64,000 bases of DNA from Liolophura sinensis (Eukaryota; Mollusca; Polyplacophora; Chitonida; Chitonidae): assembly GCF_032854445.1 (NCBI RefSeq), contig NC_088301.1, positions 30,674,402 to 30,738,401 on the forward strand, read 5' to 3'. Shown in pieces: positions 46,001 to 52,000 of this stretch (positions are counted from its first letter, which is position 1; each line of letters starts with the position of its first letter). The position numbers and the translations under genes are program-made. The notes beneath the pieces were generated by a model. The model was not told where the DNA came from. It saw only the letters and a program-made list of their open reading frames with translations, and did no database searches.

Positions 46001-49000
46001 CGTATCAGTATAATGGCTCGGGCGGGCCGGCTTACTTGCCTTCGGTAAGACGTCTCAGTGTGGCAGCACTAGATAAAAGAGCCGTGGAAATCCATCCTGC
46101 AACAAGGAGGCACATTACACGCACTCTAAGGATTCCTTCGTCATCATATGACTGAAAATTTGTTAAGTACAACGTTAAACCTCAAGCACTCACTAGAGAT
46201 GTATTCCAGTCCTTATGTGTATGCCGGTTCGACAACGCGACACAACTCGAGTTGTGTTCCAGTCCTTGCATGGATGCCAGTTGCACGATGTTAAACCCCA
46301 AGCACTCATAAATGAATTTGTATAATTAGATAGATGTAATAAGTACTGTCTTGTTCTATTTCAGCTGTTTAAGTGTACGAGGCCTGGCCTTCCACTGAGA
46401 GTGTATTTTGTTATGTACACAGGCTCCACAGAAGAACAGAGATATCTGACAACATTGAGAAAGGAAAAAGAAGCATTTGAGTACCTTATTAGGACAAAAG
46501 CTGTGAGTAATTATTAGTCTAAAATCAAACAGGTTCTCTTGTATGATACATGTACCACTGCATACAAATAAGTGCAAAAAAAGTTGTTAGCATGATGATT
46601 ATTATTCAGATGTAAAAATTTGTGTTTGTTAAGATAAAAAACATAAATGAAGTACTGGTAAGTCAATACAATAATCAATAAATATGTTAATTGAAATACA
46701 GACAATGGTGATCCCAGAGGAAAGAGATGGTAAGGCAGGGGATGCCCCAAATTTGGCAAGGGACAGCACTCCTGCTAGTGAGACGGTCAGCTCTAGGAAA
46801 GGTGCTGTGGAGAAACCACAAGAACAGAGGGTAAAGGGTTATGAGAGTTCTGGAAATCTGCATAGCTACTCTGCAATAAGATGGTAAAACAGTCAGTTAT
46901 TCAGGGTTATTCAAGTACTCAAGACTTTTAACCACAGAGTCCTGAAATTCCTGATAAGTAACCTAGTTAAAAGTTTTCAGGTCCTTGTTCTTGCAAATGT
47001 GTTTATTACGGGATAGTGGTTGATTTTTTTTATGTTGAACAAATATCATATTGTATTATGGTTTAAAGTGGATCTTTAAATAAACTTTAAATCAAAAGTA
47101 GTATTCATTGATCTCTGTATGAAGGTTGGAAAATGTGGGAAAAATATTTTCTTTCACAGAAGCCTTGAATTCACAGACATTTTAAAGAGATGGTTTGTTT
47201 TCCCATAACTACAGGTTATTGTGGACATGCGCGAGTTCCGCAGTGAGTTACCGTCCCTGATCCACCGTCGTGGGATAGAGATTGAGCCTGTTACACTGGA
47301 GGTACGTTAACATTCAATATTGTTTTGTCCACAAGGCACACACGATGTATCATATGACCGAAAAATTGTTCAGTACGATGTTAAACCCGAAGCACGCACT
47401 CACTCACACACGATGTATCGGCTCAGTCCAGTACACCACATATTGGGATTCAGCCTGCTGTTTTGATGAGGAGATTGTCTCTTGATACGTAAAGTTATAA
47501 TATTACGCATTTGAAATAACACATCTAATGCATCACATAACACCTTGGACTTAAATGAAATGAGGGAATTTTCATGATGATACTTGGCAGATGTGTTGGG
47601 AACAAACTGTAGATGTGTTGGGAAATCTTCCTTTTTCAATTATCAACTGCATTGCTTGGCTAAGTGGGTGAATGTGTCAGATGTTGTTACATAATGCCCT
47701 GTTGTTTCTGCTTGCCCAGTCTAGTTTGCCTAGATTTATAGTCATGCTCCAGTAAGTCCATGTTGGAGCTATAGGTAGATGTGTTTAGTGAGGGAGCACT
47801 GAAAAACTGATCCATTTGGTAAACATTTCAGGCTGGAGATTACACCATCACACTGGATATATGCTTAGAATGATGTGTTTAGTGAGGTAGCGCCAAAAAA
47901 CTGGTGTTGTGGAGTAATCATTTCAGGTGGGAGATTACATCATCACACCAGAGATGTGCATAGAGAACTTAGTATGATGTGTTTAGTGAGACAGCAGTGA
48001 AAATCTGGTAATTTGGAATAAATATTTGTAATCATTTCAGGTGGGAGATTACATCATCACACCAGAGATGTGCATAGAGAGCTTAGTATGATGTGTTTAG
48101 TGAGACAGCAGTGAAAATCTGGTAATTGGGAATAAATATTTATAATCGTTTCAGGTGGGAGATTACATCATCACACCAGAGATGTGCATAGAGAGCTTTG
48201 TATGATGTGTTTAGTGAGACAGCAGTGAAAATGTGGTAATTGGCAATAAATATTTGTAATCATTTCAGGTGGGAGATTACATCATCACACCAGAGATGTG
48301 CATAGAGAGCTTTGTATGATGTGTTTAGTGAGACAGCAGTGAAAATCTGGTAATTGGGAATAAATATTTATAATCGTTTCAGGTGGGAGATTACATCATC
48401 ACACCAGAGATGTGCATAGAGAGCTTATTATGATGTGTTTAGTGAGACAGCAGTGAAAATGTGGTAATTTGGAATAAATATTTGTAATCATTTCAGGTGG
48501 GAGATTACATCATCACACCAGAGATGTGCATCGAGGGCTTAGTATGATGTGTTTAATGAGACAGCAGTGAAAATGTGGTAATTGGCAATAAATATTTATA
48601 ATCATTTCAGGTGGGAGATTACATCATCACACCAGAGATGTGCATAGAGAGCTTTGTATGATGTGTTTAGTGAGACAGCAGTGAAAATCTGGTAATTTGG
48701 AATAAATAATTGTAATCATTTCAGGTGGGAGATTACATCATCACACCAGAGATGTGCATAGAGAGCTTAGTATGATGTGTTTAGTGAGACAGCAGTGAAA
48801 ATCTGGTAATTGGGAATAAATATTTATAATCGTTTCAGGTGGGAGATTACATCATCACACCAGAGATGTGCATAGAGAGCTTTGTATGATGTGTTTAGTG
48901 AGACAGCAGTGAAAATGTGGTAATTGGCAATAAATATTTGTAATCATTTCAGGTGGGAGATTACATCATCACACCAGAGATGTGCATAGAGAGCTTTGTA

Positions 49001-52000
49001 TGATGTGTTTAGTGAGACAGCAGTGAAAATCTGGTAATTGGGAATAAATATTTATAATCGTTTCAGGTGGGAGATTACATCATCACACCAGAGATGTGCA
49101 TAGAGAGCTTATTATGATGTGTTTAGTGAGACAGCAGTGAAAATGTGGTAATTTGGAATAAATATTTGTAATCATTTCAGGTGGGAGATTACATCATCAC
49201 ACCAGAGATGTGCATCGAGGGCTTAGTATGATGTGTTTAATGAGACAGCAGTGAAAATGTGGTAATTGGCAATAAATATTTATAATCATTTCAGGTGGGA
49301 GATTACATCATCACACCAGAGATGTGCATAGAGAGCTTTGTATGATGTGTTTAGTGAGACAGCAGTGAAAATCTGGTAATTTGGAATAAATAATTGTAAT
49401 CATTTCAGGTGGGAGATTACATCATCACACCAGAGATGTGCATAGAGAGCTTTGTATGATGTGTTTAGTGAGACAGCAGTGAAAATGTGGTAATTTGGAA
49501 TAAATATTTATAATCATTTCAGGTGGGAGATTACATCATCACACCAGAGATGTGCATAGAGAGCTTTGTATGATGTGTTTAGTGAGACAGCAGTGAAAAT
49601 GTGGTAATTGGCAATAAATATTTGTAATCATTTCAGGTGGGAGACTACATCATCACACCAGAGATGTGCATAGAGAGCTTTGTATGATGTGTTTAGTGAG
49701 ACAGCAGTGAAAATGTGGTAATTGGCAATAAATATTTGTAATCATTTCAGGTGGGAGATTACATCATCACACCAGAGATGTGCATAGAGAGCTTTGTATG
49801 CTGTGTTTAGTGAGACAGCAGTGAAAATGTGGTAATTGGCAATAAATATTTGTAATCATTTCAGGTGGGAGATTACATCATCACACCAGAGATGTGCATA
49901 GAGAGCTTAGTATGCTGTGTTTAGTGAGACAGCAGTGAAAATGTGGTAATTTGGAATAAATATTTGTAATCATTTCAGGTGGGAGATTACATCATCACAC
50001 CAGAGATGTGCATAGAGAGCTTTGTATGATGTGTTTAGTGAGACAGCAGTGAAAATCTGGTAATTTGGAATAAATAATTGTAATCATTTCAGGTGGGAGA
50101 TTACATCATCACACCGGAGATGTGCATAGAGAGCTTAGTATGATGTGTTTAGTGAGACAGCAGTGAAAATGAGGTAATTTGGAATAAATAATTGTAATCA
50201 TTTCAGGTGGGAGATTACATCATCACACCAGAGATGTGCATCAGGGGCTTAGTATGATGTGTTTAGTGAGACAGCAGTGAAAATGTGGTAATTTGGAAAA
50301 AATATTTATAATCATTTCAGGTGGGAGATTACATCATCACACCAGAGATGTGTACAGAGAGCTTTGTATGATGTGTTTAGTGAGACAGCAGTGAAAATGT
50401 GGTAATTTGGAATAAATAATTGTAATCATTTCAGGTGGGAGATTACATCATCACACCAGAGATGTGCATAGAGAGCTTTGTATGATGTGTTTAGTGAGAC
50501 AGCAGTGAAAATGTGGTAATTTGGAATAAATAATTGTAATCCTTTCAGGTGGGAGATTACATCATCACTCCAGAGATGTGCATCGAGAGGAAGAGTGTAA
50601 GCGATCTGATAGGTTCACTCAATAATGGACGCTTGTACAACCAGTGTGTCTCCATGTGTCGCTACTACAGACGCCCCATCCTTCTCATCGAGTTTGACCC
50701 CACAAAGTCCTTCTCTCTGCAGGTCAGTTTCTGTTTTATAGCAGGAAATAAGTGCATAATTTTAGCAAAGATGAAAATGTATGGACACATTGTAAACTGT
50801 GGTATTTATAAGGATAGCCATGCTAGTCTCAGATATTTCTGTGTGTAAAAAAAACAAAGATGATGCAAGGGCATATATTGAATGTGTATGTGCGTGTAGG
50901 GTGAGGTGGGGAGGGGGAATATAGGGATTATCTTTGATACATCTAATAGACTGTGTGTCCCTTTGTCCATTTTTAACACAATTCTTCATACAGTTCTCAA
51001 CAGATTTTAATGAAACATTCCAGGTGTATTGGGGGCAATGTTGTTCCATGAATTGTTTTCCAAGTTATTGGCTTTTGAAGGTAGACCTTGGACTTAAATG
51101 AAATGAGGGAATTTTCATGATGATACTTGGCAGATGTGTTGGGAACAAACTGTAGATGTGTTGTGAACAAAGTGTAGATGTGTTGTGAACAAATTGTAGA
51201 TGTGTTGTGAACAAATTGTAGATGTGTTGTGAACAAACTGTAGAGGTGTTGTGAACAAACTGTAGATGTGCTGGGAACAGACTGTAGATGTGTCGGGAAC
51301 AAACTGGTAGATGTGTTGTGAACAAGTTGATGTGTTGTGAACAAATTGTATAAGTGTTGTGAACAAACTGTAGGGGTGTTGTGAACAAACTGTAGATGTG
51401 TTGTGAACAAATTGTAGATGTGTTGTGAACAAACTGTAGATGTGTTGTGAACAAACTGTAGATATGTTGTGAACAAACTGTACATGTGTTGTGAACAAAC
51501 TGTACATGTGTTCTGAAAAAATTGTAGATGTGTTGTGAACAAACTGTACATGTGTTGTGAACAACTGTACATGTGTTGTGAACAAACTGTAGATGTGTTG
51601 GGAACAAACCTTAGATGTGTTGGGAACAAACATGTTTTTCATGTTTAGCAATCCTGTATGCAATTGATGTAGTCCTAAACTATGACTGCGATGTATGTTG
51701 AGATGGAAAATCCTATATTTTTCTTGAACATCTCATTTCTCCATATAAGAAAGCCCATATGCTCATTTTTTTTTTATAATTTGAATCACAATTCTGCTTG
51801 TAATTGGTCAGGTTAGGACTGCACAGGCAGCTTACTCAATGAAATGGACGCTGTAGTTTTTCTGTTATTGCAACGAAAGAAAAAAAAAACAAATCTAGTT
51901 GTAAATGTTTTAAGGTTTTAAAGGTTCTACCATCAAAACTATGCGGAAAGTCTCCAAAGATGGCCACCAAAATAGGACAGGCTTAGCAATAACTTCATCT

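Follow-up and report, generated by a model that had tools for sequence, protein, structure and literature searches.

Arrays of near-copies at two splice edges of the XPF gene in the chiton Liolophura sinensis: probable mirage minisatellites

The gene for the DNA repair endonuclease XPF (ERCC4) of Liolophura sinensis carries, directly upstream of exon 19, a long row of tandem units that reproduce the end of intron 18 together with the start of that exon. What kind of structure is this, and how might the gene be spliced correctly when the true acceptor is preceded by so many near-copies of itself (here called decoys)? We put the probability at roughly 80% that this array, and a second one at the end of exon 21, are mirage minisatellites, that is, tandem repeats whose founding unit straddled an exon–intron junction by chance and that persist as a tolerated by-product. 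The window referred to below is the whole 64-kb stretch of DNA that was analysed. The assembly to which it belongs (609.5 Mb in 632 scaffolds) is described as first published under the name L. japonica, which was later corrected (PMC11068029, PMC12441733).

Two mirror arrays in an intact gene

The exons were matched one by one to human XPF, with exons 1, 11, 13, 14 and 21 placed by reading frame and splice sites. When joined, the 22 predicted exons keep the frame intact and encode a product of 889 amino acids, which is 100% identical over its 889 residues to the deposited L. sinensis protein "DNA repair endonuclease XPF-like". The deposited protein thus corresponds to a model that skips every decoy, and no decoy sequence is found in it. 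Among the 120 matches listed out of 1763, no other protein was named as coming from Liolophura, and this one is free of inserts. Exon 19 aligns with residues 713–769 of human XPF (E = 5.6e-29 for the whole sequence). The features of the locus are collected in Table 1, where, as in the text, a slash marks the splice junction.

Table 1. Features of the XPF locus, in window coordinates.
Feature	Position	Strand	Remarks
XPF/ERCC4 gene, coding exons 1–22	27946..55371	+	Human XPF exon matches and spliced frame; stop codon ends at 55371
Exon 18	47215..47301	+	Donor GAG/GTACGT
Oldest, diverged decoy unit	47832..47926	+	95 bp; 13-residue peptide; acceptor TTTCAG/GC
Acceptor-side array, intron 18/exon 19	47927..50548	+	23 units of exactly 114 bp, each exon 19 start then intron 18 end
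743-bp block in acceptor-side array	48026..48768	+	Exact repeat at 48710–49452; lag 684 bp, equal to six units
Authentic exon 19	50549..50722	+	Nuclease motif GD..ERKxxxD; donor CAG/GTCAGT
Authentic exon 21	53048..53143	+	Donor CAG/GTGTGT
Donor-side array, intron 21	53144..55038	+	Terminal ~32 nt of exon 21 with its donor, repeated 28 times
Exon 22	55111..55371	+	C-terminal, with stop

TRF described the acceptor-side array as a repeat of period 114 with 23.5 copies and 95% matches (47914–50589). Anchored on their acceptors, the decoy units begin at 47927 and follow each other in steps of 114 bp up to the last one at 50435 (n = 23), after which the true exon 19 begins. About 41 nt of each unit are exon-like and nearly identical to the exon 19 start. 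All 23 units open with GTGGGA right after TTTCAG, and AG/GT is kept at 23/23 decoy sites. An 11-residue peptide is encoded in frame in 23/23 units, and its 13-residue form in 21/23. The decoy frames end at a stop three codons past codon 13 (six in two of the units); only the last copy, the true exon 19, continues into ERKSVSD. All this bears out the first-pass annotation of the locus, which had described 114-bp tandem units made of the intron 18 acceptor and the exon 19 start, with the true exon as the last unit and the only one to reach ERKxxxD, the motif into which the captured codons lead. Its count of 23 decoy acceptors holds for the full units and needs to be extended by a diverged 24th, the 95-bp unit upstream, which, compared without gaps, departs from exon 19 at 11/39 of its exon-like bases. 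AG is thus present at 24/24 decoy acceptors upstream of exon 19, as AG/GT in 23 and as AG/GC in the oldest.

The 743-bp block comprises about six and a half units, and units 3–8 equal units 9–14 in the acceptor-anchored list. This exact repeat is a recent segmental amplification inside the array, and its 684-bp step shows that array growth included multi-unit copying. Seven variable sites fall in the exon-like 39 bp and 14 in the other 75 bp, an about equal density; the exon-like variants are rarer, with 9 minority bases compared to 67 in the rest of the unit. A 501-base query, consisting of the array end, exon 19 and some of intron 19, was searched against the genome (609,464,459 bases in 632 contigs, common words skipped), and 23 of the 24 non-self matches were inside the array. 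The acceptor-side repetition is far beyond chance. The remaining match is a 40-bp stretch, 90% identical to window positions 50691–50730 at the exon 19 end; it lies on the other strand outside the window, about 42 kb downstream, at contig positions 30767884–30767923 (−).

The donor-side array in intron 21 was absent from the first-pass annotation. Its donors are spaced 61–71 bp apart, AG/GT is present in 27/28 copies (the last copy reads AG/GA), and it contains a 418-bp exact match at a lag of 399. The arrangement mirrors that at exon 19: the true acceptor is the last in the exon 19 array, the true donor is the first in the exon 21 array, and in both arrays the true site adjoins the exon body. 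When 44 exon ends (42 of them splice edges) were tested for same-strand copies within the window, these two arrays were the only positives. For the exon 6 donor there was a single match to itself, of 22 nt and in inverted orientation. Further minisatellites that contain no exon edges lie in XPF introns at 38097–38541, 39031–39578, 41786–42096, 51132–51631 and 52402–52483, and, added up, the arrays with a period of at least 10 come to about 9.5 kb of the window.

Splice-site choice and the origin of the arrays

Splice sites were scored with a small matrix built on the XPF gene's own sites. The 23 full decoy acceptors scored 8.0–11.2 and the oldest decoy 7.6, compared to 6.7 for the true exon 19 site. 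By this matrix the decoys outscore the true acceptor, and site strength was rejected as the reason why they would go unused. Fair donors, scoring 6.8–9.8, are found 81 bp into the decoy acceptor units, which would in principle permit exon definition of the decoys. In intron 21, the decoy donors equal the true donor (CAG/GTGTGT, 9.0) or come near it (CAG/GTGTGC, 7.7). These scores count against the explanation preferred below.

The most probable explanation is that both arrays are mirage minisatellites. Their units are of minisatellite size (114 bp, and donors 61–71 bp apart, within a range reported as 10–160 bp in lancelet examples; PMC3087553), and they span real exon–intron boundaries of an intact XPF gene, where exon 19 begins and where exon 21 ends. 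The decoys retain splice signals at nearly every copy, a property that varies among the arrays of the survey described below. The inner units are homogenised, as seen in the 743-bp exact block, whereas the divergent outer unit is excluded. The anatomy of the units suggests that a small tandem duplication took in the junction, and the block copying suggests later growth of the array through slippage or unequal exchange involving several units at a time. Growth would always have been directed into the intron, copies that broke the exon presumably being lost to selection. The true site would thereby have stayed nearest to the exon body, as the last of 25 acceptors and the first of 28 donors. Exon definition, which pairs exon ends over the shortest distance, could then let the proximal site win and leave the decoys intronic: the exon 19 donor would pair with the nearest acceptor, and the exon 21 acceptor with the nearest donor. 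Tolerance of the arrays is thus probably due to the use of the exon-proximal site by exon definition, with which the deposited protein agrees, and the arrays would need no role of their own.

Recursive splice sites are ratchet points of long introns, at which an acceptor directly adjoins a donor. Such a juxtaposition occurs in 23 of the 24 decoys, and joining exon 18 to any full decoy would rebuild a 5' site, GAG/GTGGGA, that scores 6.1, higher than 10/21 real donors (leave-one-out). The array might accordingly be removed in hops, or splicing errors might correct themselves, since splicing that began at any full decoy would still lead to the correct mRNA. However, exon 19 itself opens with GT, and it is these first exon bases that give the 23 full units their AG/GT; the oldest unit reads AG/GC, a kinesin acceptor array in the same genome (L014, below) reads AG/GA, which argues against a general principle, and the scheme is unworkable for donor-side arrays. 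We therefore hold recursive splicing to be quite improbable. An improbable extension would make the acceptor-side array a self-correcting splice ladder in which any of the 23 full decoys leads on to exon 19 and a correct mRNA, with thousands of serial splice-site competitions across the genome if the survey is extrapolated.

It is very unlikely that the decoys serve as optional mini-exons, spliced into the nuclease domain as 45-nt (15-codon) exons, or that they act as poison exons whose stops reduce the amount of XPF. The 45 nt from a decoy acceptor to GTATGA are indeed in phase 0 and free of stops, but as a donor GTATGA is weak (1.9), and no insert is seen in the deposited protein, the one Liolophura entry named in the listed part (120 of 1763) of the matches. 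Four of the seven distinct exon-like changes are synonymous; the share is 20% when every possible change is counted and 28% for transitions. Seven changes are too few, however, to tell whether coding selection acts on the decoys. Mini-exons from the exon 21 array were rejected, because the acceptors in the two units scored were weak (best 1.9).

Least likely of all is an assembly artefact giving a wrong copy number, notably a doubling of the exact 743-bp block by the assembler; the exact repeats at lags 684 and 399 would fit it, but the HiFi reads are reported to average 8,347 bp at 14X (PMC11068029), longer than the 2.7-kb array, the units are distinguished by shared and private variants, and the same structure occurs at other loci of the genome.

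Frequency at other splice edges

The first-pass annotation had considered it unusual that the captured exon edge belonged to an essential repair nuclease. The feature is not specific to such a nuclease, as kinesin and myosin genes of the same genome carry arrays of this kind; XPF itself has a second one, on the donor side of exon 21. The kinesin and myosin arrays come from a survey of 60 exon loci, namely the best-scoring 30 of 132 kinesin matches and the best-scoring 30 of 81 myosin matches, which were scanned for same-strand copies spanning exon edges predicted with the XPF own-site matrix, most of these edges being unchecked predictions. Copies were found by script at 7/120 edges, or 6/120 after one mispredicted edge was removed, compared to 85/480 random flanking positions and 0/60 exon centres. 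The same test on XPF gave 2/42 edges, 85/300 intron positions and 0/22 exon centres. Fisher's test gave p = 3e-4 for the survey (6/120 vs 85/480) and 4e-8 for the pooled data, but both values overstate the certainty, since random positions drawn from one locus depend on each other, low-complexity repeats were counted and the sample is small.

Minisatellites are thus dense in and around genes of L. sinensis, and they strike splice edges less often than background positions, a pattern that randomly placed arrays under selective filtering would be expected to give. The survey suggests that about 5% of the sampled splice edges, or one in twenty, carry copies of themselves, an estimate drawn from two gene families with several exons per gene in one genome, with low-complexity repeats unfiltered. 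(XPF was chosen for its array, and the rate rests on the survey only.) A random-placement estimate for XPF, based on 10 unit sizes of the analyst's choice, gave 0.62 expected edge-spanning units and a probability of 0.13 for two or more. Mirages look common in this genome, as chance products of dense minisatellites that are tolerated.

Six loci were edge-positive (L009, L014, L027, L056, L062 and L064). At L014, a kinesin exon beginning EAMSINKSLS is preceded by 11 copies in 64-bp units on the acceptor side (~790–1510), with AG kept in 8. At L027, a kinesin exon ending MFGQR is followed by at least 20 copies on the donor side (~1640–3120), mostly in 73-bp units and with GT kept in 19; this array may extend past the end of the locus. 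L009 has three copies with GG where the donor has GT (GT in 0/3). L062, with one degenerate copy, and L064, with about 10 nt of exon, are weak members. Sixteen hit-bearing loci of the 60 were read by eye. L038, first suggested by coding overlap, was discarded, because its repeat was located past an in-frame stop and the edge had been mispredicted inside an intron. L010, L025, L033, L048, L053, L054, L058, L061 and L066 were judged intronic or weak on the same reading.

Relation to known boundary-spanning repeats

The first-pass annotation knew of no earlier description of such an array. However, tandem repeats spanning exon–intron boundaries are reported under the name "mirages" from lancelet genes for Adh, globins and troponin C (PMC3087553, PMC3902484), those named being Adh3, the globins BflGb6 and BflGb9, and troponin C, and similar repeats are described in lancelet PGBD5 (PMC3902484). 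As in XPF, the lancelet units span the boundary on the acceptor or the donor side, many with splice signals, and the inner units are reported as homogenised with the boundary units excluded. The XPF arrays have 24 and 28 extra copies, compared to 6 and 3 units in two haplotypes of BflGb6, a comparison limited to that globin. The lancelet mirages are reported not to disturb the regular mRNA, and RT-PCR suggests normal splicing (PMC3087553, PMC3902484); in the chiton, the corresponding observation is a deposited protein that equals the skip-all model. Mirages were also proposed, for the lancelet globins, to seed new introns (PMC3087553).

Unlike the lancelet cases, the present one has a mollusc host, two mirror arrays in one gene and a rough rate per splice edge. 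The boundary-spanning kind of repeat was already known, and what is new here is the mollusc host and the rate. The main text of a chiton-genome paper (PMC12005716) makes no mention of minisatellites or tandem repeats, and as far as our literature search shows, with its thin coverage of molluscs, the XPF arrays are the first mirages in this phylum. Mirages are thereby extended from lancelets to a mollusc, with a warning for gene annotators working on minisatellite-rich genomes. If the rate holds, about one splice edge in twenty of the chiton genome would be flanked by a series of near-copies of itself, providing many natural experiments on how the spliceosome chooses among near-identical serial sites, on both the acceptor and the donor side, and a test bed for the seeding of new introns by mirages.

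The human interferon-induced gene 6-16 (IFI6) reportedly contains a minisatellite with multiple splice donors, as stated in a title from 1995. Its wording implies that the additional donors contribute to the transcript, a use that would be hypothetical for the XPF decoys.

Some other elements of the window were noted. An open frame of 587 aa at 17310–19073 (−), unlike the surrounding minisatellite frames, may be a transposon-derived gene. Dispersed repeats at ~41240–41510 and ~43905–44165 (inverted) resemble what we take to be a tRNA-derived SINE. The same stretch of about 75 bp is present in introns 18 (~47543–47620) and 19 (~51086–51163), and its intron 19 copy runs into a 22-bp minisatellite.
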